Shown here piece by piece: positions 931 to 62,181 of a stretch of DNA of 64,000 bases. The stretch is from assembly GCF_013267195.1 (NCBI RefSeq), contig NZ_CP053943.1:1-64000 (forward strand), written 5' to 3'. The notes under the pieces were generated by a model that made no database searches, was not told the DNA's origin, and saw nothing but the letters and a program-made list of their open reading frames with translations. The position numbers were made by a program, and so were the translations under genes. Origin of the DNA: Halorubrum salinarum. Its GTDB lineage: Archaea > Halobacteriota > Halobacteria > Halobacteriales > Haloferacaceae. Position 1 is the stretch's first letter, and each line of letters begins with the position of its first letter.

Positions 931-1749
931 CTACGGGGAAGGAAGGCGGCCGTCTGGTCGGGGCACGCGACCCCGTTTGATCTCGTGATCGACGCGACGC
1001 AGGTGCTTGCAGCCGCCTTCGGGTGAGCGCTGCTGCCAGTCGGGACAGGTACACGATTCGTCGATGACGTCGACTTCGTACCGGTTCCCGGACGCGGACT
1101 GCACCTCGTAGCGGCCACCTTTCGAAAGGAGCGAGACGTCCATCGCTTCGGCGACGGCACGCTTCGTTCGGGGCTCGAAATCGTCCTGTGACTCTGCGTT
1201 CTCGTCGACGACCAGTCGGTCGCGAACATCGCCCGTTCGGCCACCGTCGGGAGCGACGGCTTCAGCAGGGCCACTGAGCCGCTCGTGGAGAACCTCCTCC
1301 ACCGGATGGCCTTCCGGCCACAGGAAGTGGACCTCGCGGCGCTCGCGATGGTCGTAGGAACCGCACGCCGCTGCGCTCCCGGTCCACACTCGCCAGGCAC
1401 CCAGCGCGGCCATCACGTCGACGATGTCGCGGGGAACCGTCTGGTGGTCGTCCGGGAAGAACACCCGAAAGCGGGTACACGCCTCCTGGGGCGGGACAGT
1501 TTCCCACCAATCTTCGCTGGCGCTCCAGCTATCGAACATCGCGTCGTCGCTGCCGTAGCCCACCGTGACGCCGTCGATCGGCGTCCAGCCCGTCGGGAGG
1601 TGGTCTGCCTGTCCCTCGAGTATCCGGAGGACGGCGTATCGAAGGTATTCGTGGGCTTGGTTGTCCGTCGTTCGGGCGACCTGCTCGTGCTGCTCGGCGA
1701 CGTGCTCGGCTTCCCTGAGGACCGTCGTGAGATAGGGTTCAGTCATCAT
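931..1749 (-). CDS. SWIM zinc-finger protein
   Basis: 272 residues from the ATG at 1749; an in-frame ATG follows directly at 1746. The C-terminal 50 residues hold the SWIM pattern: CTCPDW, then CKHL about 11 residues later, giving the Cys-x-Cys...Cys-x-His zinc ligands preceded by a YEVDVIDE beta strand. SWIM domains bind DNA or proteins and occur in bacterial SWI2/SNF2 and plasmid proteins. The remainder (residues 1-215) is not recognised. It lies directly downstream of a palindromic leader and a 42-nt inverted repeat. The longer frame up to 1806 would run through those elements and is not used. Confidence 0.7.
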   Translation of the reverse strand: MMTEPYLTTVLREAEHVAEQHEQVARTTDNQAHEYLRYAVLRILEGQADHLPTGWTPIDGVTVGYGSDDAMFDSWSASEDWWETVPPQEACTRFRVFFPDDHQTVPRDIVDVMAALGAWRVWTGSAAACGSYDHRERREVHFLWPEGHPVEEVLHERLSGPAEAVAPDGGRTGDVRDRLVVDENAESQDDFEPRTKRAVAEAMDVSLLSKGGRYEVQSASGNRYEVDVIDESCTCPDWQQRSPEGGCKHLRRVDHEIKRGRVPRPDGRLPSP

Positions 1750-1774
1750 TCGATGGAGGTCAGAACGCGCCTCC

Positions 1775-1798
1775 GCCCCTCCGCGGGCGCTGAAAAAC
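1775..1798 (-). promoter_or_regulatory. Palindromic leader module (copy 1)
   Basis: Read on the minus strand: GTTTTTC, two bases, then a GC-rich stem around the loop GCGGA, 26 nt before the ATG of the SWIM gene. The 42-nt repeat abuts it on the upstream side. Confidence 0.55.
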
Positions 1799-1840
1799 TT
1801 AACCAACAGAGCGGGAGGAATCGATCACTCTGTTGGTTAA
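1799..1840. repeat. 42-nt inverted repeat IR-1
   Basis: Perfect 13-bp arms (TTAACCAACAGAG / CTCTGTTGGTTAA) around a 16-nt spacer. It starts 5 nt after the ardC-like stop codon and abuts the promoter module of the next gene. This copy has the longest arms of the seven. Confidence 0.85.
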
Positions 1841-1845
1841 CCGTG

Positions 1846-2784
1846 TTAGAACGAGGATTCGCCTTCGAGCACGTCGATGAGCTCTTCTGATGTGGAACTA
1901 ATCCGTCCAAGCCGCTCGCGAACGACCTCGGGATCGTCTGACTCCCAGGCTGCGAGGTAGAACGCTGACCCACTGGTGTCGAGCCCGCAGTACCGCCCGA
2001 CGACGTACGCGACGGCTTCGGCCTCGACTTCGCGTTTCGCCCGCTCGGTGTCGTCGTCGACATCGAAGTGGAGCAGGGCGTGTGCGTACTCGTGAATCAG
2101 CGTCCGCGCAAGGTCGGCCTCGTTCTCCCGATCACGCACCTCGACGAGCGGCTGAACGTCGATGAGACTCAGCTGTTCGCAGATGCCCTTCGCCTCGCCG
2201 TGGGCCCACTCCTCGGCTGGAACGATACGCACCGTCACGCCGAGGTCGTCAGCGGCGCCAGTCAACTGTTCAACGAGGTCGCCGGCGTCCCCAGTCGCTT
2301 CCGTGTCCAGGTCAGAAAGCGGTTCGCCCTCGGTCTGGGAGACGTCGAACACCGGCGCGGGCTTGAACCCGACCAGCCCCTCGGACCACTCTTCGGGCGG
2401 CGTCTCGTCGTACTCACAATCGCTGTCCTCGTGGTAGCTCGGCGAGTTCTCGCACTCCGGGCACTGTTTCGCGATGATTGGCGCCCAGATCCAGATGGCC
2501 GACTCACCCTCCGTGACGTGACGGTCGAACTCCTCCTGCCACGTCCGGTAGCCAGCCACGCGGGTTGCCTCGGGACACTGCCGCTTGATGAGGAGCGTGT
2601 TCCGATACGAGTAGTCGTGGAAGCGACTCTGGACGTCTAGCCACTCCTGGAACTCTTCGCTGGCCTGCGCGTCGTCGACGCCGGCGACGAGGTCGTCGAT
2701 CCACTGTTCGATAGTGCTGTTCATCTCGTCGGATCGCGTGTCGGTCTGGTCGAAGGAGACCGACGAGTCACTAGTCGTAGCCAT
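1846..2784 (-). CDS. ArdC-like antirestriction protein with zincin metallopeptidase domain
   Basis: 312 residues from ATG 2784 (MATTSD). The N-terminal part (about 20-105) matches the ArdC N-domain pattern with a helix-rich SRFHDYSYRN stretch, which in the family binds single-stranded DNA. Residues about 225-262 contain LIHEYAHALLH, the HExxH zinc motif, followed by EVEAEAVAYVV, which supplies the third ligand. A Cys-pair insert (CPEC, residues 108-111) is present. ArdC proteins protect incoming plasmid DNA from host restriction, which fits a conjugative element. The gene has its own palindromic leader and ends 5 nt before IR-1. The 330-residue frame starting at 2838 would overlap that leader, so I prefer the internal ATG. 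Confidence 0.8.
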   Translation of the reverse strand: MATTSDSSVSFDQTDTRSDEMNSTIEQWIDDLVAGVDDAQASEEFQEWLDVQSRFHDYSYRNTLLIKRQCPEATRVAGYRTWQEEFDRHVTEGESAIWIWAPIIAKQCPECENSPSYHEDSDCEYDETPPEEWSEGLVGFKPAPVFDVSQTEGEPLSDLDTEATGDAGDLVEQLTGAADDLGVTVRIVPAEEWAHGEAKGICEQLSLIDVQPLVEVRDRENEADLARTLIHEYAHALLHFDVDDDTERAKREVEAEAVAYVVGRYCGLDTSGSAFYLAAWESDDPEVVRERLGRISSTSEELIDVLEGESSF

Positions 2785-2831
2785 TGTGTGCACCGAATCA
2801 CGTTTACGGCGACTGCGTCTGTTCAGACCGC

Positions 2832-2863
2832 GCCGCACCCCTCAGAGGCGCATCAGAAACAGC
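2832..2863 (-). promoter_or_regulatory. Palindromic leader module (copy 2)
   Basis: Minus strand: GCTGTTTCTG box, then GCGCCTCTGAGGGGTGCGGC, 48 nt before the ardC-like ATG. The right half GAGGGGTGCGG is the best conserved part. Confidence 0.55.
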
Positions 2864-2940: not shown

Positions 2941-3087
2941 ATGGGGATACTGACTACACTCCGCAAAGCCGTCGAGGGGAAGTCGTCGACGGTGTGGGAG
3001 TGCCGGCACTGCGGAGAGACACTCTCAGAGAATGCTAATGAGTGTCCAACTTGCGGTGCCGAAGATGTCGCGTGCTACGAGATCTAA
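2941..3087 (+). CDS. 48-residue zinc-ribbon protein
   Basis: ATG 2941 to TAA 3085-3087 encodes MGILTTLRKAVEG followed by a zinc ribbon: CRHC, then CPTC 13 residues later, ending in CYEI. Single-ribbon proteins of this size and N-terminus are common in haloarchaea and are of unknown function, presumably binding nucleic acid or protein. It is rightward while its neighbours are leftward, and its stop overlaps the end of the convergent gene by 3 nt. A weak TATA-like TTTAAG lies at about 2879-2884, which would imply a short 5' leader. Confidence 0.7.
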   Translation: MGILTTLRKAVEGKSSTVWECRHCGETLSENANECPTCGAEDVACYEI

Positions 3088-3434
3088 TTACGAAGCGTTG
3101 ATCGCTCCTCAGCGAAGCCGACCGTGACGAGGTACTCGAGGAACTCGTCGAACCGCTCGACGTCGCTAGGCGTGTCGGTCGCAAGGTGACGCGCCCACTC
3201 GATGGCCCACTGGAAGGCGGGATCCGTGCCGCCTTTGCCGTGAATGTACCACCACCGGGCCGCTTTCAGCACGACCAGCGGGTTCGTCGGCGGCTGCTCA
3301 CCGGCGAGCCCACGAGTGATGGATTCGATTTCGTCGGGGATGTCGGCGGGATCGACCTCCGCTGATTGTGTGTTGTCGATATCGACCGGGATCTCGTCGA
3401 TCGAGACGTTGTCAGGACGCTGTTGTTGACTCAC
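3084..3434 (-). CDS. Hypothetical acidic protein
   Basis: 116 residues, MSQQQRPDNV start. The first 45 residues are very acidic and probably disordered; residues 50-115 look like a small helical domain rich in Trp (KAARWWYIHGKGG, WAIEWARHL). No family recognised. The gene has its own palindromic leader inside the 71-nt gap after the preceding gene, and ends convergently against the zinc-ribbon gene. Confidence 0.65.
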   Translation of the reverse strand: MSQQQRPDNVSIDEIPVDIDNTQSAEVDPADIPDEIESITRGLAGEQPPTNPLVVLKAARWWYIHGKGGTDPAFQWAIEWARHLATDTPSDVERFDEFLEYLVTVGFAEERSTLRN

Positions 3435-3505: not shown

Positions 3506-4507
3506 TCACGCCGGCGGGAGGTAGACGCTCTGCTCGCCGGCGATCTCCTCCAGGTTGTTCCGATGACGGTGGCTGAAGTAGCACTCGTAGCTGCAGTATC
3601 CACAGATTGCGCCGGTATCGTATTCGGCCACATACGGGCCGCGGCGAGTTCGCCAAACGTTCGTCCCGCACTCGGTACAGGCGGCGTCCTCGAGATCGGC
3701 AGGACTCGGACCCTCGTACTCGACGGTCAGCCCCTCGTCTTCCGGTGTTGATTCAGGCCAGACCCCGTGTTGCTGCCAGAACTCGCGGACGCGGGCGAGG
3801 CTGTGACGCACCGTCTTTCGCACGGTGACGTGGTCGGCGTCGCGACCGCTGTCGTCCCAGCCGTCGGCCGTCCAGAACTCACCGAACTGCGCGCCGCGAT
3901 GCAGCCCGTTCCAGTCGACACCGACGATGTCGGCTGGTGGCTCGTCAGTGAGTGTCGGTCGGGTCAGCTGTCGAATGGCGTCGAGCTGCTTGGGCGGACT
4001 CCCGCCGAGAATGTGGACGCGCCGCCCTCTCCAATCGGCTGGGTCGGAGAACTCGTGGGCCAGACGGTCGGCGTATCCCCGTGAATACCCGAGGACGAGG
4101 GTCTCGGGTATCGCGTCGATCACCGCCCGCGACTTCGGAACGACGATGAGCTCGGCCTCTGGATAGCTCGCTTGGATCTCACGAGCAGCAGCGACGTGGG
4201 CGTCGACGTCGTCGATTTCGTCGACATCCCCGATGACCCCAACCTCTGGTTCGTACTCGAAGAAGCGGTCGACGAACCGCTCCAGATCGGGATTTCGGAA
4301 ATCGTTGTCGAGCATCCCGACGGGGAGGCTGAGATTCTGATACTGCGTCTCTTGGTACCCACAGTCCTCGCGAAAGCCAGGAAGGAAGCCGAGGTCGACA
4401 GCGTCGACGACAAACGGCGCTCGATGCAGAAACGCCACGTAGTCTGCTTGTCTGGCGGCGGCGATTTCGCGGGCGGTGCTGGCGCTGGAGCTCAGCTCGA
4501 GGGACAT
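3506..4507 (-). CDS. Putative TGT/DpdA-like protein (DUF6610-like) with C-terminal zinc site
   Basis: 333 residues. The core (about 90-215) has alternating strands and helices with IVVPKSRAVID, VLGYSRGYADR, HILGGSPPKQL and IVGVDWNGLH. This resembles the TIM-barrel order of tRNA-guanine transglycosylase relatives such as phage DpdA, where short strands end in catalytic Asp and Gly loops. The C-terminus has a Cys cluster (CTEC, CGYCSYEC, then His) likely to bind zinc. If correct, it would act on 7-deazaguanine bases in DNA or RNA. I am confident the gene is real and much less so of the fold. No preQ0 synthesis genes are in the window. Confidence 0.5.
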   Translation of the reverse strand: MSLELSSSASTAREIAAARQADYVAFLHRAPFVVDAVDLGFLPGFREDCGYQETQYQNLSLPVGMLDNDFRNPDLERFVDRFFEYEPEVGVIGDVDEIDDVDAHVAAAREIQASYPEAELIVVPKSRAVIDAIPETLVLGYSRGYADRLAHEFSDPADWRGRRVHILGGSPPKQLDAIRQLTRPTLTDEPPADIVGVDWNGLHRGAQFGEFWTADGWDDSGRDADHVTVRKTVRHSLARVREFWQQHGVWPESTPEDEGLTVEYEGPSPADLEDAACTECGTNVWRTRRGPYVAEYDTGAICGYCSYECYFSHRHRNNLEEIAGEQSVYLPPA

Positions 4508-4535
4508 GATTTGGCTCGCGAGGCCGCTGCTGGCT

Positions 4536-4566
4536 GCCCCGCACCCTTTCAGGGGCCCGAAAAACC
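4536..4566 (-). promoter_or_regulatory. Palindromic leader module (copy 4)
   Basis: Minus strand: GGTTTTTCGGGCCCCTGAA then AGGGTGCGGGGC, 29 nt before ATG 4507. IR-2 ends 13 nt upstream. Confidence 0.6.
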
Positions 4567-4579
4567 GGGGCGCAGCGTA

Positions 4580-4621
4580 TTAACCAACAATAGGGGAACT
4601 CACGTGGAGTGTGTTGGTTAA
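4580..4621. repeat. 42-nt inverted repeat IR-2
   Basis: TTAACCAACA at 4580-4589 and TGTTGGTTAA at 4612-4621, 22-nt unrelated spacer. It begins 9 nt after the stop of the leftward gene at 4631. Confidence 0.85.
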
Positions 4622-4630
4622 GAATAGAGC

Positions 4631-4852
4631 TTACTCTTCGTTCTCACGCAGCTCTTCAGCCTTCCACTTGAGCCGGCGCAGAATCTGCGTTCGGTTCTGG
4701 TGGGCGTTCTCGTAGGCAACGCACTCCTGGAGGGTTTCCATATCCGGAATCGTCGCGATCCCTGCCTTGATCAGGCGCGTGTTCGGTGCCTCAAGCCGCT
4801 TTTCAGGCGGAAATTCGTCTGACGCCTCTGAGTCGTCTGTAGAAGTACCCAT
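4631..4852 (-). CDS. Small hypothetical protein
   Basis: 73 residues from ATG 4852 (MGTSTDDSEA); an in-frame ATG at 4867 is less likely because it falls at the edge of the leader. The first 25 residues are acidic and low complexity; the rest is helical and basic (QNRTQILRRLKWKAEEL). No family recognised. Its stop is followed by IR-2. Confidence 0.6.
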   Translation of the reverse strand: MGTSTDDSEASDEFPPEKRLEAPNTRLIKAGIATIPDMETLQECVAYENAHQNRTQILRRLKWKAEELRENEE

Positions 4853-4861
4853 AACGGATGC

Positions 4862-4890
4862 CTCCACCTATTGAGGGCACGAGCAACAGC
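4862..4890 (-). promoter_or_regulatory. Degenerate palindromic leader
   Basis: Minus strand: CTGTTGCTCGTGCCCTC then AATAGGTGGAGG, only 10 nt before ATG 4852. The T-box is broken and the stem is weak, so this is a poor copy. Confidence 0.3.
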
Positions 4891-4991
4891 AGAGAATTGA
4901 AGCAGTAGATCTTGGGAAGGTGCACCCACTGCGAATGAGACCATCAAAATAGAGGCCTTCACGACAGGATTCGAGCTGTCTCGAAGCCCAA

Positions 4992-5303
4992 TCAGGCTTC
5001 CGAGGATTCGAGCAAAACGAGGTTCTGAACAGGGTATGGGTTATTCTCGCCGGCGAACTCGTCCTCAGGGACGTAATGCCAGAGGTGGCCGTCTACCTGG
5101 TAGAGAAACGACTCGCCGCCTTCTGCTTCAACTCGTACTCGTTTCCCGACATTATCGTCTTCTTCCCAGCCGATCACGGTCAACGGCTCGACGGGCCATT
5201 CAAAGAATTTGACCGAGTCACCAGACTCCAACTCTTCAAAAGTCTCTATATCCCCCTGCTGTGGCTCTCGCGCGTCAAGAGTCGGATTATGCTCAATAGA
5301 CAT
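4992..5303 (-). CDS. Hypothetical SH3-like small protein
   Basis: 103 residues. Residues 22-100 alternate short strands (SVKFFEWPVEPLTVIGW, KRVRVEAEGGESFLYQV, HLWHYVPEDEF) and suggest an SH3-like or small beta-barrel fold. No family recognised. The gene is AT-richer than its neighbours and has no palindromic leader, so it may be under separate control. Confidence 0.6.
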   Translation of the reverse strand: MSIEHNPTLDAREPQQGDIETFEELESGDSVKFFEWPVEPLTVIGWEEDDNVGKRVRVEAEGGESFLYQVDGHLWHYVPEDEFAGENNPYPVQNLVLLESSEA

Positions 5304-5400
5304 GGTCTCTGGGTACGCCCCTACTCACTTAATACTGTCAGCAGTGGATTCCAGCCGCTAGAACGGAAGCACGCCTGGCGAATTTTCTCTCCGACTGCTC

Positions 5401-6561
5401 TTAGCCCATCGCCTCTTGGAACCGCTCGCGCAGCGCGTCCTCTCGCTCTTCGAACTGCTCGACTTTCTCCTGCAGGTCGTCGCTGACGCGCTCGATGCTC
5501 GCCAGCGCTCGTTCGCCGGCCAGCGACGCCTGTGACCCGTCGGCACCGTCCGCCTCTAGCTGCTGCTCGTACGCCTGCTCGACGCGCTCAATCGTGCCTT
5601 CCGGATTGAACAGGATGTCGTTGGCGATGCGGACGTACTGATCGAGGGATGCCCCCTCTTTCCCCTGGAAGAAGTGGGTGAGGGCGTACGTCGCGCCGGA
5701 ATGCAGCGTCCACATATCGATCTCGAAGGGGGACGCCGCATTGGCTTCTGCATCGCCGGCGGCACGCTCGGCTAGGTAGTCCGGGAACCCCAGCAGAGTG
5801 TAGAACTCCGTGACGGTGAACGGGAGTTCGGAGAAGTCGAGTTCGATGTCCTGGGCGTCCCGGATGAACTCGAAGAGGTCATCGGCGACGAGTTCGACCT
5901 GTGCGAGGAGCTCCTCCCACCAAGTCCGGAAGTTCCGCACGTCGCCGACGTGTTTGATGACCTCCTTGTCGGTGAGCGAGCGCATCGTGTTCGAACAGTA
6001 TCCGTCCTGAGCGAACCCTTCCACGTAGACGGCGTGCTCGCCGAAGAAGTCGTAGCCCGACGTGACGCCCATCGTGATCGGATCCGACCGGCCAGGAAGG
6101 CGCACCTCGAGACCATCGAACATAATGTCCATGTGGACCTCGCCGCCTCCCCGGTAGCGCCGAATCTCTCCGAACATCACCTCGCCCAGCGGGGTCCCGT
6201 CGATGGTCTCCTCGCGGAGGACCTCCTCCAGCGGCCCGTAGACGTCGACCGGGTTGATGATCGAGTAGCTGTCAGTGGGAACGTGGAACAACGGGTCCGT
6301 CTCCGCGTCCTCATCTCGAGCCTGCTCCCGAGCCCGACTCGGCTCGACGAGCGCGTTGAACCGCTCCGTCTCGACCCACTCGTCGGTGTACGGATTCTGG
6401 TACGCCACGGTCGTCTCGACGGCCTGCGGAAGATCGCGGACCGCCTCGGCGAAGGTCACAGGGTCTGCATTCCCGTGTCGCTCTCGGTACCACTCGGGTA
6501 GTTCGGTGTCGGTACGCCCATCGACGCCAGCGAAGATGGTTCTGGACTCTGGATCTTTCAT
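5401..6561 (-). CDS. DUF932-like plasmid protein
   Basis: 386 residues from ATG 6561, preceded at 6 nt by the ribosome-binding sequence GAGGTG; a GTG three codons upstream is possible. Features shared with DUF932 (phage/plasmid TIGR03299-like) proteins include an N-terminal FAEAVRDLP segment, SYSIINPVDVYGPLEEVL, a strand-rich middle (RRYRGGGEVHMDIMFDGLEV) and a helical C-terminal half ending in a coiled coil (about 340-386). The family occurs in mobile elements; its function is unknown, with DNA-associated roles suggested by context. It has a strong palindromic leader and sits just beyond IR-3. Confidence 0.6.
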   Translation of the reverse strand: MKDPESRTIFAGVDGRTDTELPEWYRERHGNADPVTFAEAVRDLPQAVETTVAYQNPYTDEWVETERFNALVEPSRAREQARDEDAETDPLFHVPTDSYSIINPVDVYGPLEEVLREETIDGTPLGEVMFGEIRRYRGGGEVHMDIMFDGLEVRLPGRSDPITMGVTSGYDFFGEHAVYVEGFAQDGYCSNTMRSLTDKEVIKHVGDVRNFRTWWEELLAQVELVADDLFEFIRDAQDIELDFSELPFTVTEFYTLLGFPDYLAERAAGDAEANAASPFEIDMWTLHSGATYALTHFFQGKEGASLDQYVRIANDILFNPEGTIERVEQAYEQQLEADGADGSQASLAGERALASIERVSDDLQEKVEQFEEREDALRERFQEAMG

Positions 6562-6614
6562 CTCAGTCACCTCACTTCAGGAATCCTCGTCGACGTGCGA
6601 CTGCATCGTCTCGC

Positions 6615-6647
6615 GCCCTGCGCCCCTCTCCCGGGCGCAAAAACAAC
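6615..6647 (-). promoter_or_regulatory. Palindromic leader module (copy 5)
   Basis: Minus strand: GTTGTTTTTGCGCCCGGG then AGAGGGGCGCAGGGC, 54 nt before ATG 6561. GCGCCC/GGGCGC form a perfect 6-bp stem. IR-3 begins 6 nt upstream. Confidence 0.6.
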
Positions 6648-6653
6648 ACCACG

Positions 6654-6695
6654 TTAACCAACGCCCGTCTCTAAATGGCGGGGAGTGTTGGTTAA
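6654..6695. repeat. 42-nt inverted repeat IR-3
   Basis: TTAACCAACG at 6654-6663 and TGTTGGTTAA at 6686-6695, with one mismatch in the arms (position 10). Located 37 nt after the stop of the leftward gene at 6733. Confidence 0.8.
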
Positions 6696-6732
6696 TCCAG
6701 ATCCAGTCCACGGCTCGGAACAGATGTCGGAA

Positions 6733-7275
6733 CTACTCAGATTCGTCTCTCCGTACCCGGACCTGCTCAGGATTTGGAACCCAGGGGTGTGCTTCCCAGC
6801 AATGCCGAGCGTGACTATGCGGTGAGTCGAACTCTCTACTACAGGATCCACACTCGTAGGTGGCATCGGGCCAAGGCTCGCTGACGAACATCGCTGTCAC
6901 CGTCGTCGCCACCGGCTCGGGGGCCTCGCTCCGCGTAACGTACCTGTAGCCGAGAACCGTCCGTTGCCCCATCGCTGTTCGGGCGATCTCGGTTGGCTTG
7001 TCCTCGGGGAGATACACCCAGCGAACGAAGTCGTCGACCGATTTCTTGGCTGAGGGCTGGAGGATGAACCATCGCTCGTGGTCATCTCGGAACAGGTAGC
7101 GTTCGGTCCCCCTGTTTTGGAGGTATATTGGGTCATCCCTGCCGGGGACGAGCCGCAGTCCGAGCGACGGCGATACCGGTTTCAAAAGCTGGTCAACGAC
7201 CGATGGGTCGTCATCTGTCCGGCTCTCCGAGCCAGCCTCCGCTACAAATTCATCGAGACTGGCATTCGTGGTCAC
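6733..7275 (-). CDS. Hypothetical protein with C-terminal C2H2 zinc finger
   Basis: 180 residues using GTG 7275, which has GGGAGGTGG 6 nt upstream; its first codon overlaps the end of the preceding gene, so the two are coupled. An in-frame GTG at 7284 is the alternative. The C-terminal part has a C2H2 finger, CGSC then HARHCWEAH. The middle (LGLRLVPGRDDPIYL, YLFRDDHERWFIL) is a beta-rich region of unknown fold. IR-3 follows the gene. Confidence 0.6.
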   Translation of the reverse strand: MTTNASLDEFVAEAGSESRTDDDPSVVDQLLKPVSPSLGLRLVPGRDDPIYLQNRGTERYLFRDDHERWFILQPSAKKSVDDFVRWVYLPEDKPTEIARTAMGQRTVLGYRYVTRSEAPEPVATTVTAMFVSEPWPDATYECGSCSREFDSPHSHARHCWEAHPWVPNPEQVRVRRDESE

Positions 7276-7937
7276 GGGGACCACCTCCCGAGGGAGGCCT
7301 GTTCCCGGTCGGACTCAGCTGGGACTTCGCAGAGAAACCGCCACTTCGGCTGCTCTCGGATCTGCTTATCGGGGCGATTTCCCGCTTGGCCGGGGTCCGT
7401 TTTACCGGCACAGTGCCAGCCCTTGTCTCTGAGCGCTTTGATCATCGAGCCGTCGAAGTCGGCTCGCACGAATGTCACCAGGAGCCGAACGCCTCGTCGC
7501 TGGCCGTGCCGACGCACGAACCGTTCCATCGACCGGGCGAGGGCGGCAGAGGCGAGATTGGGGAAATCGACGCCGATGCAAATCCGTGCTGCCTCGACGA
7601 TTTCGTCACCCTCGAATCGCGTCCCGTCGTACTCCAGCGAGCGAATCAGCGGATAGCGCCACGTAATCGCACCTAGTAGCTGGTCCTGGTAACAGAGTCC
7701 GTGATGGACGAGATTCGTCCGGGGGATATCGTCCATATAGGAGTGATGTGCTTCGTAGATCGCGCCGGCGACATGGCGCGGGATCGATTCGATATGGACG
7801 CGCTCTGCGAACCGCAAACCGAGCGGCGCCGTGACCGGCTGCCCCTCCCGATGGATAGGACACGAGCACCCCTCGGGGGTAGGCGTATACTGGAAGCCGG
7901 TACTCCGTATTTGGTCTAGAGAGTGAGTTTCGGTCAC
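7272..7937 (-). CDS. Mom/GNAT-like acyltransferase-fold protein
   Basis: 221 residues with a GTG start overlapping the stop of the small upstream gene. Residues about 65-175 contain HHSYMDDIP, LLGAITWRYPL, EIVEAARICIG, NLASAALARSM, LLVTFVRADFDGSM and KALRDKGW. That order (His-rich helix, beta hairpin, P-loop-like SAxLAR segment, then the D-G-S-M-x-K-A-L element) is what I know from Mom-like GNAT proteins of phages, which modify adenine in DNA. The assignment is by pattern and not proven. It is the third gene of a leftward operon starting at the DUF6166-like gene. A possible TGT-like gene lies 3 kb away. Confidence 0.5.
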   Translation of the reverse strand: MTETHSLDQIRSTGFQYTPTPEGCSCPIHREGQPVTAPLGLRFAERVHIESIPRHVAGAIYEAHHSYMDDIPRTNLVHHGLCYQDQLLGAITWRYPLIRSLEYDGTRFEGDEIVEAARICIGVDFPNLASAALARSMERFVRRHGQRRGVRLLVTFVRADFDGSMIKALRDKGWHCAGKTDPGQAGNRPDKQIREQPKWRFLCEVPAESDREQASLGRWSP

Positions 7938-8065
7938 GAGTCGGTGTCGTCGGTGCGCTCCTGTCGGTCGTTGTATCGCTCCAGTTCGCGCCCCATTTTC
8001 TCGAGCGCCTCGACACCACGTTCGAGGAGCTGGTGGGTGGCTCGCGCCAGTCGAAGCGTCTCCAT
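7934..8065 (-). CDS. 43-residue helical peptide gene
   Basis: ATG 8065 overlaps the stop of the gene before it, and its TGA (7934-7936) overlaps the GTG of the gene after it, so it is a coupled link in the operon. The product METLRLARATHQLLERG... is a single amphipathic helix with a polar acidic tail. It is too short for most gene finders. The tight overlaps on both sides are the main evidence. Confidence 0.6.
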   Translation of the reverse strand: METLRLARATHQLLERGVEALEKMGRELERYNDRQERTDDTDS

Positions 8066-8751
8066 CAGTGCTCCCCCTCCGGGGGTTCGATGAGGTCGTT
8101 GCTCTCTTCGGCGAGTTCTTGGATTACCCGTTCCACGTCAGCCTCCTCGACAACTGTCCTATGTGCGAGCGGGGCAGGATATGCCCGGTCACCCTGGCTG
8201 CAGAGCACGACCAGCCACTCGTCGCTTCCATCCCCGAGCACGATGTAGTGGTCGCGATCAGCGCGCTGGAACACTCTTCGATCAGGGCGAGAGACGGTTC
8301 GCCAGTTCTCGGGGAGCGTCGGTGACGGCCGTCCGCCGTCGGCGAGGGCGACGACGTCGTCGGTAAGGGTCGCCATCGCGGCGTCGATCTCCTCGCCGGG
8401 GAGGTGCCAGCACGCCGCGGCACCGTCGCACTCCAGCTGCGAGACCACTTGATTCCGGAACGCAATGTAGTGCTCACGGGCGAACTGCTCATCGTCGTAG
8501 TAGTCGAGTAGGAGTGCGCACGCGAGCTGGGCGGGCCCGCTGCCACTGTATCCCCACTCGAATCCGCTTGGACTGTGGTTAACGAGGTCGAGACTGCGCT
8601 CGAGGGAGAGTCGCCGATGCTCCGAGAGGTTCAGGACGACGGCTTGGCCGTCGACGCGGAAGCCGACGTATTCGACTGCGTCTCGGTGAGCCTGACCTGG
8701 CGATGCGACTGGAACTGATTCCGAACTGGCCATAGGTACATTCCCGTTCAT
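8065..8751 (-). CDS. DUF6166-like plasmid protein
   Basis: 228 residues from ATG 8751; ATG 8733 is an alternative. Residues about 25-120 carry the features I associate with DUF6166: YVGFRVDGQAVVLN, LSLERSLDLVNHSP, FEWGYSGSGPAQLACALLLDY and FAREHYIAFRNQVV, ending near WHLPGEEI. The GxSGPAQLA segment is the family hallmark. Function unknown; common on haloarchaeal and bacterial mobile elements. The C-terminal 80 residues are extra. A leftward frame extending to 9405 runs antisense through the Mrr-like gene and is not part of this gene. Confidence 0.65.
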   Translation of the reverse strand: MNGNVPMASSESVPVASPGQAHRDAVEYVGFRVDGQAVVLNLSEHRRLSLERSLDLVNHSPSGFEWGYSGSGPAQLACALLLDYYDDEQFAREHYIAFRNQVVSQLECDGAAACWHLPGEEIDAAMATLTDDVVALADGGRPSPTLPENWRTVSRPDRRVFQRADRDHYIVLGDGSDEWLVVLCSQGDRAYPAPLAHRTVVEEADVERVIQELAEESNDLIEPPEGEH

Positions 8752-8775
8752 CGTTGCTCGCGGGCGGTTCGGTGA

Positions 8776-8808
8776 CCCCCGCACCCCTCTCAGGGGTTCA
8801 ACAAACAG
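8776..8808 (-). promoter_or_regulatory. Palindromic leader module (copy 6)
   Basis: Minus strand: CTGTTTGTTGAACCCCTG then AGAGGGGTGCGGGGG, 25 nt before ATG 8751. CCCCT/AGGGG stem; the T-box is TGTTTGTT rather than GTTTTTC. Confidence 0.55.
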
Positions 8809-8868
8809 GATGGCGTAGCGTTCGGCAACGTATTTGGCAGTTGCAACGTACTGTCCACATAATTGAGG

Positions 8869-10233
8869 ATGGCTGTACTGGACGATCTCTCGGGGTTCGA
8901 GTTCGAGGACGTGATGGAGGACGTGTTCCGGAACCTCGGCTACGAGAACGTCCGCCAGGCCGACCGCACGGCTGACGAGGGTCGCGACGTCATCATGGAG
9001 GAGGTCGTCGACGGCACGCGGCGTGCGATCATCGTCGAGTGCAAGCACACGGGGACGGTCGGACGGCCGGTCGTCCAGAAGCTCCACTCGGCGATCGCGA
9101 CGTTCGACTTCGACGGCCCGAAACGCGGAATGGTCGTCACGACCGGCCGGTTCACGAATCCCGCTCGGGAGTACGCCGACCGCCTCCAGCAGAACGACGA
9201 CCCGCACCCAATCGAGTTGCTCGACGGCGAGGACCTCCGTGAGATCGCCGACGAGATCGGCCTCGACCTCTACAACGGTCGCATCGAGATTCTCTGCGAC
9301 GAGACCCTGCGCCCGTACGATCCGGCCGCCGACGTCGACGCCGCCGTCGCGGAGGCGTTCCGCGACATCGAGAACATCGAAGCCGCCGACCTCCCAGAAC
9401 CGCACTCATCGGTGACGTTCCGCCCGGTGGTCGCGGTCACCGCGGACACGAACGCCGTCTTCGAGACGTCGGTGGGCGTCATCCACCGGATCAACGACCG
9501 GACGCGATTCGTTGCCCACGCCGAGCGCGGGCAGCCGCAGGTCGTCGATGAGGACGTCGGGACGCTGGTCACCGAGAACCTCCACGCGACGGTCGAGCTC
9601 GACACCGAGCAGTTCGGAGAGGTGTTCGACGACGTTGAGGAGCGCCGGTTCGGCCAGACTCAGACGGAGTACAAGGAGTGGGCCGTCGAGCGGCTCCAGG
9701 AGCACCACACAACGACGGTGACCTACACCGGCGACAACAACGTCACGTACAACAAGACCTGCGAGCCGAACCGCTCGGACATCTCCGTCCAGTCGATTGA
9801 GCCGGTGTACCTCCCCGAGGTTCGACAGACGACCGAGCTCCAGGAGTACACCTACCCCTACGAGTACTACGCGGCAGGCCCGTCAAGAGTGACAGCCGAG
9901 GACGGCATCCACCGCTGCGTTCATTGTGACACGAGCGGCGGCGACGAGACGTACACCTACTGTCCGAACTGCGGGGCAATCGCCTGCTCCAGCCACATCA
10001 AAACGGAGCGGCTGGAAGGCGAGCCGGTCTGTACGGGCTGTGCGAGGACGGAACGGTTCGCGCTGAAGACGAAGTACTTCTACGACGAGGAGAACCTCGA
10101 AGCGTTCCGCGAGGAGTACGCCGCGATGCCGCTTCACGAGAAGGCGATGGAGAACAAGTGGCTGGCCGGGGGAAGCGTTGTCGCGACGCTGCTGGTCGTC
10201 GTCGGACTACTCGTCATCGGCGGCATCATCTGA
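8869..10233 (+). CDS. Membrane-anchored Mrr-like restriction endonuclease
   Basis: 454 residues from ATG 8869. The N-terminal 110 residues form an Mrr/PD-(D/E)xK domain: FEDVMEDVFRNLGYENV, then GRDVIME (Asp40) and IIVECKH (Glu57, Lys59), the catalytic D...ExK triad. A central domain of about 250 residues follows, then a double zinc ribbon (CVHC...CPNC and CSSH...CTGC, about 350-400) and a C-terminal membrane helix (GGSVVATLLVVVGLLVIGGII). Mrr-type enzymes cut modified DNA. The membrane tail is unusual and would hold the nuclease at the cell surface, where incoming DNA appears. It is the only rightward gene in this block and has no palindromic leader. Confidence 0.75.
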   Translation: MAVLDDLSGFEFEDVMEDVFRNLGYENVRQADRTADEGRDVIMEEVVDGTRRAIIVECKHTGTVGRPVVQKLHSAIATFDFDGPKRGMVVTTGRFTNPAREYADRLQQNDDPHPIELLDGEDLREIADEIGLDLYNGRIEILCDETLRPYDPAADVDAAVAEAFRDIENIEAADLPEPHSSVTFRPVVAVTADTNAVFETSVGVIHRINDRTRFVAHAERGQPQVVDEDVGTLVTENLHATVELDTEQFGEVFDDVEERRFGQTQTEYKEWAVERLQEHHTTTVTYTGDNNVTYNKTCEPNRSDISVQSIEPVYLPEVRQTTELQEYTYPYEYYAAGPSRVTAEDGIHRCVHCDTSGGDETYTYCPNCGAIACSSHIKTERLEGEPVCTGCARTERFALKTKYFYDEENLEAFREEYAAMPLHEKAMENKWLAGGSVVATLLVVVGLLVIGGII

Positions 10234-61137: not shown

Positions 61138-62181
61138 TTAGATCACCCCCAACCAAAGCCCAGTGATGGCCAACAACAGCAACAGCAGCACAGCGATTGC
61201 GGCCTTGTAGTAGACCGGCGGGAGCCCCTCGGATGCGGCCGCCTCGTCGACTGCTTCGGCAAGCTCTCGTTCATGTTCGTGCTCCTGCTGGAAGGTTTCG
61301 TACGCGGCGTCGAGCTGTTGCTCCAGCGGCTCGATCTCACTCCCAAGGAACTCTTGGCGGGAGTTTACGATATACTCGCCGGCGGCTGTCGGCGTGATCG
61401 TCGCGACGTCCGCCACCTGATCCGCGATAAGGCGGTCATCAGTATGTCCAATTGCGGTGACAACCGGGGTATTGGCGGTGAAGATCGCCTCCGCGACCCG
61501 CTCGGTGTTGAACGCTTGGAGGTTCGAATCACTCCCACCGCCGCGGCCGACGATGATGGCGTCGACGTCCTCCGAGCGGTCGAGATGGTGGATACCGTTC
61601 GCAATGGACATCGGCGCCTCTGACCCCTGGACGGTGGCGTCCTTCACCAGGATGTCGACGGTGGGGTCCTGTCCGTGGATCGCGTTCTGGATGTCGTACC
61701 GGGCATCTCCTCGAAGGGACGTGACGACACCGACCCGCTCCGGGAACGCAGGCGGCTGTTGTTTCTGCTCGTCGTCGAACCAGCCACGCTCTTCGAGTTC
61801 GCTTCGCAGTCGCTCGACGGCAGCCGCCTGGTCGCCGTCGCCGACGACGATCACCTCCCACGGCTTGAGGTCGATTTTCCCACCCTCTGTCCAGTAGTCG
61901 ATATCGCCTTCGAGGATGACCTCCGTCCCGTCCTCGAGGTCAGCGTCCATCTTCTGATAGCGGTTCGCCCAGAGCATACAGGGAAGCTCGGCGTTACCGT
62001 CTGTCAGGGTGAAATAGAGGGCGGTACTGTTCTGGTGGAGATCCGTGACCTCGCCAATACAACGGACGCCGTTGAGGGCAGGCGTGTCCTGGACGACCGA
62101 TGCAATTCGGTCGTTCAGCTCTTGGACTGAAAGAACATTCCCGGACAGGGCATCATCTACCTCTCGTTCGGCATCAGCCAT
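61138..62181 (-). CDS. xseA: Exonuclease VII large subunit with C-terminal membrane helix
   Basis: 347 residues. An OB-fold domain (about 15-95: VRCIGEVTDLHQNSTALYFTLTDG) is followed by the catalytic domain (about 130-275) with RVGVVTSLRGDARYDI, VGRGGGSDSNLQAFN and AIGHTDDRLIADQVADVATITPTAAGEYI. Bacterial XseA then has a long coiled coil that holds XseB subunits; here the helix is short and the protein ends in a transmembrane segment (about 325-345). The enzyme degrades single-stranded DNA to oligonucleotides. Confidence 0.85.
   Translation of the reverse strand: MADAEREVDDALSGNVLSVQELNDRIASVVQDTPALNGVRCIGEVTDLHQNSTALYFTLTDGNAELPCMLWANRYQKMDADLEDGTEVILEGDIDYWTEGGKIDLKPWEVIVVGDGDQAAAVERLRSELEERGWFDDEQKQQPPAFPERVGVVTSLRGDARYDIQNAIHGQDPTVDILVKDATVQGSEAPMSIANGIHHLDRSEDVDAIIVGRGGGSDSNLQAFNTERVAEAIFTANTPVVTAIGHTDDRLIADQVADVATITPTAAGEYIVNSRQEFLGSEIEPLEQQLDAAYETFQQEHEHERELAEAVDEAAASEGLPPVYYKAAIAVLLLLLLAITGLWLGVI

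Follow-up and report, generated by a model that had tools for sequence, protein, structure and literature searches.

To our knowledge, DNA modification by 7-deazaguanines and by Mom-type enzymes has been described from viruses, and 7-deazaguanine also from a bacterial restriction system. The Mom chemistry is an acetamido-type change of adenine at N6. For the haloarchaeal virus HVTV-1, Hutinet et al. (2019; PMC6884629) described DNA in which dPreQ1 replaces about 30% of G and which resisted all restriction enzymes tried, even some whose site contains no G. They did not find the guanine transglycosylase DpdA in HVTV-1, and proposed that the work is done either by a DpdA of the host or by an enzyme that had escaped detection (PMC6884629). 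Here we analyzed a window of 64,000 nucleotides, positions 1-64000 of contig 3 (NZ_CP053943.1; 155,204 bases) in the 3.34 Mb genome of the haloarchaeon Halorubrum salinarum. It contains a row of plasmid genes with a candidate for such a transglycosylase, a protein of the Pfam family DUF6610. Three genes of this row are at the center of the argument:

1846..2838, minus strand: ArdC-like protein, with an ArdcN domain above the Pfam cut-off (PF08401, 24.4 vs 22.6 bits) and an M78 peptidase-like domain just below it (PF06114, 21.1 vs 22 bits).
3506..4507, minus strand: DUF6610 protein (PF20314) of 333 amino acids with a Cys-rich C-terminal part, a candidate DpdA-type guanine transglycosylase.
7272..7937, minus strand: Mom-like protein of 221 amino acids (PHROG 1384; alignment with phage Mu Mom), a putative adenine-modifying enzyme.

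The occurrence together of ArdC-like, Mom-like and DpdA-like genes suggests an anti-restriction island. We give a probability of about 0.55 to the reading in which the DUF6610 protein swaps guanine for salvaged preQ0, the Mom-like protein alters adenine and the ArdC-like protein is a third partner. The first-pass annotation of this DNA had pointed to the second and third of these reading frames as possible base-modification genes. Both lie at the coordinates it gave, on the minus strand, and both are real genes, since they have protein-level relatives in plasmid records: 95 records for the DUF6610 protein (96 with the start Met included) and 24 for the Mom-like protein. Relatives of both are borne by plasmids of named, cultured haloarchaea; in the laboratory strain Haloarcula marismortui ATCC 43049, one plasmid (NC_006394) carries the two genes together.

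The 3506-4507 protein matches PF20314 with an E value of 6.7e-79 and 264.6 bits, where the gathering cut-off is 27. Of 292 genomes sampled from the class, 99 have a member of this family, as does one of 14 control genomes, that of Haloferax volcanii. The gene neighborhood was examined in the best 80 of 104 confirmed DUF6610 relatives from one scan of named genomes, each locus spanning at most 10 kb on either side and some being shortened by contig ends; an ArdC-like gene was present in 74 of the 80. A PF20314-type gene was also detected in the haloviruses HF1 and HF2 and in 39 further halovirus records, with 80-95% identity to that of locus L054. PADLOC returned nothing for either the DUF6610 or the Mom-like protein, and NCBIfam nothing for DUF6610.

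Some relatives lie among genes for 7-deazaguanine synthesis. In eight virus records the plasmid protein finds HVTV-1 gp69 or a relative of it. HVTV-1 gp69 is itself a PF20314 protein (190.8 bits vs the cut-off of 27), and its gene lies directly after FolE, with QueE, QueD, QueC and QueF in the same row. In two diverged haloarchaeal loci, L049 and L048, QueF (56.6 and 48.6 bits; cut-off 27.3) stands on the same strand directly before the DUF6610 gene and, with longest open reading frame (ORF) starts, overlaps it; it is possible that these loci are proviruses that could make dPreQ1. In Mycobacterium phage Rinkes, gp1 (L192:1-1302), annotated as ParB-like, carries PF20314 at residues 199-384 (E 2.2e-33), and after it come QueF, a DpdA-like gene, QueC, QueD, QueE and FolE; DUF6610 is thus found outside archaeal elements as well. 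Altogether, members of the PF20314 family stand among 7-deazaguanine genes in three different contexts. As to the surroundings of the two haloarchaeal loci, the QueF-DUF6610 pair adjoins integrase-like and MCM-like ORFs, named by eye, in L048 (6203-11585) and lies near a C5-methyltransferase-like ORF in L049 (7508-8681).

In HF2 (L193:6230-7144), no annotated que gene was seen within the 14 kb examined. For this virus, a review describes site avoidance, along with methylated bases in other viruses (PMC4284463). The DNA of HF1/HF2-type haloviruses may be worth checking for 7-deazaguanines.

Conservation of residues was followed in 46 non-redundant DUF6610 homologues of at least 230 residues, drawn from plasmids and other haloarchaeal loci as well as from haloviruses and Rinkes. 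No variation was seen at P87, D94, P124, G140, H165, L167, G168 and D198 in any of the 46 rows, nor at D67 in the 45 rows that have no gap there. In a weak hhalign register, the HILGG segment and D198 of DUF6610 fall on motifs of phage DpdA. A structure was predicted with AlphaFold from an alignment of 64 rows, chosen as non-redundant from the relatives' loci. The best model is a barrel of alternating strands and helices with a mean predicted local distance difference test score (pLDDT) of 64.3, rising to 80-97 in ten-residue blocks across much of residues 60-140. VIA-align placed tRNA-guanine transglycosylase (TGT) entries, many of them redundant, in 25 of 50 rows, with Z of 12.4-12.7 over 214-221 residues, tied with class II aldolases and other barrels. 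A sequence search against solved structures gave no relevant match. The DUF6610 protein is most likely a DpdA-type enzyme.

Among predicted models of viral proteins, the first three matches of the DUF6610 model were an HCTV-1 protein, a ParB/sulfiredoxin phage protein and a 259-aa protein of Cellulophaga phage phiST. The last of these is probably CGPG_00065 (L195:45600-46379), matched by length only in a record of which 29 kb was unread. CGPG_00065 is annotated as hypothetical and lies four genes away from FolE, past which come QueE and QueD; it shows LDN, PLD, CPQG, HFLGAG and STDS in this order, an order like that of the DUF6610 motifs. It was missed by the DUF6610 and DpdA hidden Markov model (HMM) searches. 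This protein is a possible bridge to other transglycosylases.

The Mom-like protein matches PHROG 1384, 'Mom-like DNA modification protein', with an E value of 2.2e-8, and 10 of the 11 rows of its family give a Pfam Mom match at E <= 0.001. HRTV-4 gp19, which is 39% identical to the window protein, passes the Pfam Mom cut-off (PF25680, 32.6 vs 27.1 bits). The Mom-like protein of the window falls short of it with 24.9 bits, which weighs against the reading as Mom and is the reason why we use only the name 'Mom-like'; its NCBIfam match to XF1762 is likewise below the cut-off. Compared with phage Mu Mom, hhalign gave E 0.001 at a probability of 22%, with 22% identity and common residues that include E50, H78, G80, E115, R118, N127 and S130; we take the arginine at the R118 position to be important in Mu Mom. 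The predicted model is weak (pLDDT 57.9); its best matches are GNAT and Fem-type folds, with Z of at least 8 in five of 999 chains, and among viral models a phage Mom appears at rank 40. Scans of viral contigs with the Mom-like protein and with alignment A2 yielded zero confirmed relatives, and a scan with HRTV-4 gp19 yielded HRTV-4 only. The resemblance to Mom/GNAT proteins seen in the first-pass annotation is supported by the profile matches to PHROG 1384, Pfam Mom and Mu Mom, together with the weak GNAT-type model.

How would the plasmid branch obtain a modified base? Because que genes are lacking near its members, this branch would rely on the host or on a salvaged base. The Halorubrum salinarum genome contains an arcTGT gene and a YhhQ-family transporter (167 bits). 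YhhQ carries queuosine precursors. A queuosine-precursor transporter of this kind is named for HCTV-1 and HCTV-16 (PMC8651126). QueF was not found in the genome, and QueC gave short matches only (26.2 bits vs a cut-off of 150.3, and 23.7 vs 22 over 57 of 210 positions), which makes preQ0 the likeliest base. Since QueF is lacking, no aminomethyl group is expected, which speaks against the alternative that the Mom-like enzyme acts on an inserted deazaguanine. No DpdA-type gene was seen in this genome with alignment A5, in a search that had no positive control.

In the mechanism we propose, the region would be an anti-restriction island of a widespread haloarchaeal plasmid family. The DUF6610 protein would be a guanine transglycosylase of the DpdA type, though a remote one, built on a TIM barrel; it would exchange guanine in DNA, rather than in RNA, for a 7-deazaguanine, most likely preQ0 obtained through the host's YhhQ-family transporter. 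D198 is the putative nucleophile, and D67 and D94 may bind the base or act in acid-base chemistry. Adenine would be modified independently by the Mom-like protein, and these two proteins with the ArdC-like protein would shield plasmid DNA from restriction on its entry into a new host. It is a reasonable inference that this replicon may carry hypermodified DNA.

Several results weigh against this proposal and lend themselves to other explanations. A tree built from 29 of the 46 residue-count rows, with several long branches of which that of Rinkes is the longest, separates the que-linked members, which all fall in one half, from the plasmid members in the second half, and phmmer with the HVTV-1 Que proteins found zero que genes in the 80 DUF6610 loci. 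The plasmid type also has its additional C-terminal part, in which Cys occurs at aligned positions in 21-23 of the 46 rows. DUF6610 may accordingly be a DNA transglycosylase in viruses only, the plasmid branch having kept the barrel and the residues but serving plasmid maintenance by acting on a different substrate (tRNA, a nucleotide or a signal). We regard this as unlikely, because the candidate active-site residues D67, D94, H165 and D198 are the same in both halves of the tree, the neighbor in nearly every locus is an ArdC-like anti-restriction gene, and hosts can supply the base, as the arcTGT and the YhhQ-family protein of this genome show. The structural evidence raises a different doubt. 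Class II aldolases top both structure lists, Foldseek and VIA-align, reaching Z of 13.3 in the latter, tied with or above TGT and accompanied by other barrels; Foldseek has zero TGT in its own first 50 rows, and the DUF6610 model is poor even at its best, the remaining four having pLDDT of 40-49. The fold search was therefore rejected as proof of a TGT. At the sequence level, hhalign of DUF6610 with phage DpdA was not significant, whether DpdA was represented by one protein, by 11 rows or by a 13-row set from which one more row with an internal stop was left out; the two sets gave E values of 0.04-0.18 against 0.56 for the reversed control. HMM searches between DUF6610 and DpdA in both directions found nothing in 636 ORFs from phage loci and two loci of the own genome, a weak test because the phage DpdA model also misses the host arcTGT (E 2). 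Moreover, PF20314 need not be the transglycosylase of Rinkes, because a separate DpdA-like gene is present there. The protein could then be another TIM-barrel enzyme, for example aldolase-like or of nucleotide salvage, that supports the que pathway or DNA metabolism and inserts no base. This seems to us the least probable of the alternatives: the invariant residues are retained in the plasmid loci and in further loci that lack QueF, and the HVTV-1 genome, whose DNA has dPreQ1, gave zero other TGT/DpdA matches, an absence that is itself weak because PF01702 also misses the Rinkes DpdA-like gene and there was no positive control for the DpdA model in this search. As for the TGT/DpdA-like pattern claimed in the first-pass annotation, the gene context of relatives in three settings supports it well, the low-confidence TIM barrel with its TGT/aldolase tie does so weakly, and the sequence profiles do not.

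It is a more serious, if still doubtful, prospect that the Mom-like and DUF6610 proteins are unrelated passengers on a common plasmid backbone and not one system. A Mom-like gene is present in only 12 of the 80 DUF6610 loci. We compared 48 places with a Mom-like gene, after removal of weak rows and of further pieces of a gene already counted (G019, G122, G168:C1, G269:C46 and G106:C1:979151), on contigs many of which are short. In 17 of them the contig has no listed match to DUF6610 and in four the two genes share a contig at more than 12 kb, but in 27 they lie within 12 kb of each other. The lists cover 37 of the 39 Mom genomes and 96 of the 99 DUF6610 genomes; DUF6610 is also present in 31 of the 37 listed Mom genomes, and Fisher's test with totals of 39, 99 and 292 gives p 4e-10, kinship ignored. 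On a diverged Haloarcula plasmid, the ArdC-like, DUF6610 and Mom-like genes are co-oriented within 7 kb in a different order. Such co-occurrence argues for an association of the Mom-like and DUF6610 genes, as in the anti-restriction island proposed here.

A full-length DUF6610 gene and a Mom-like gene are also found on contig NZ_AOLQ01000060 (L071) of Haloarcula vallismortis ATCC 29715, a strain of the species that is the host of HVTV-1. As a speculation, the Mom-like enzyme of H. vallismortis, if active, could help to explain the resistance of HVTV-1 DNA to enzymes without G in their site.

The minus-strand row runs from the Mom-like gene through a protein with a Cys/His-rich end, a PHROG 13083 protein, two small genes, the DUF6610 gene and another small gene to the ArdC-like and SWIM-like genes. 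The neighbors, with their occurrence among the 80 DUF6610 loci, are as follows:

931..1806, minus strand: SWIM-zinc-finger-like protein downstream of the ArdC-like gene (PF04434, 15.2 bits, below the cut-off of 19.6); 52 loci.
3084..3434, minus strand: small conserved gene between the DUF6610 and ArdC-like genes; 65 loci.
4631..4867, minus strand: small conserved gene upstream of the DUF6610 gene; 69 loci.
5401..6570, minus strand: PHROG 13083 protein (phrog_13083, E 1.3e-150); 35 loci.
6733..7284, minus strand: protein whose end is rich in Cys and His; its gene shares 13 bases with the end of the Mom-like gene; 24 loci.
8065..8805, minus strand: DUF6166 protein upstream of the Mom-like gene (PF19663, 94.4 bits).
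8863..10233, plus strand, divergent: Mrr-type restriction endonuclease (PF04471 Mrr_cat, 93.5 bits; PADLOC mREase_IV, E 6.2e-9); 25 loci.

The product of 3084..3434 gave zero matches in Pfam and PHROG searches, and the 6733..7284 protein zero in a Pfam search. The label 'DUF932-like' once given to the 5401-6570 gene is not supported, as there is no Pfam DUF932 match at E <= 1; relatives of this protein occur in 13 halovirus records at 29-38% identity. The DUF6166 gene lies in a longer ORF, 8065-9405, that extends antisense into the next gene, and an ORF with DUF6166 is present in 54 of the 80 loci. Mrr-type nucleases are of the kind that attacks modified DNA (PMC6471742), and we infer that this neighbor may have a role in competition with other elements. 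Elsewhere in the window, at 61138-62181, a protein with an exonuclease VII large-subunit domain (177.7 bits) is encoded on this haloarchaeal plasmid.

A literature search found no publication on DUF6610 or DpdA4, and likewise none on Mom in the modification of haloarchaeal plasmid DNA or on a haloarchaeal 7-deazaguanine transglycosylase. HVTV-1 gp69 and its viral relatives are probably the 'DpdA4' of a 2023 paper in Nucleic Acids Research, where DpdA4 was reportedly defined as specific to archaeal viruses; the viral branch of DUF6610 has thus probably been described already. As far as our search shows, the plasmid branch, in which Mom-like and ArdC-like genes accompany DUF6610, looks like a variant not described before.

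We tentatively suggest, at odds well short of even, that widespread archaeal plasmids, and not only viruses, have hypermodified DNA, which in its fullest form would combine two altered bases, 7-deazaguanine by DUF6610 and adenine by the Mom-like protein, with ArdC in a transferable anti-restriction island. If this is true, hypermodification would also serve plasmids as a means of passing from one haloarchaeal genus to another, and a function would be given to a DUF found in about a third of the sampled genomes of the class. The DNA of a virus made in such a plasmid-bearing cell may then be modified too, as both genes lie on one contig in the H. vallismortis genome. HVTV-1 would also gain a virus-encoded transglycosylase that the 2019 study did not find (PMC6884629).

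Compared with the known systems, the plasmid protein is closest in family to HVTV-1 gp69 and its relatives in HCTV-1, HCTV-5, HCTV-16 and HVTV-2, which are PF20314 proteins and have the invariant residues in common with it. It differs from gp69 in that its gene lies outside a que row, in an identity of about 25-30%, and in the addition of the Cys-rich C-terminal part and the ArdC-like neighbor. To phage DpdA and TGT it is likened by the TIM barrel, which is predicted for DUF6610 too, and the motif order DSG, LD, P, G, HG and D in DpdA of the 9g and Rosebush group resembles that of DUF6610 by eye. The ArdC-like protein resembles the ArdC anti-restriction proteins in its ArdcN domain and, just below the cut-off, its M78-like domain; it differs in its linkage to DUF6610, seen in 74 of the 80 loci.

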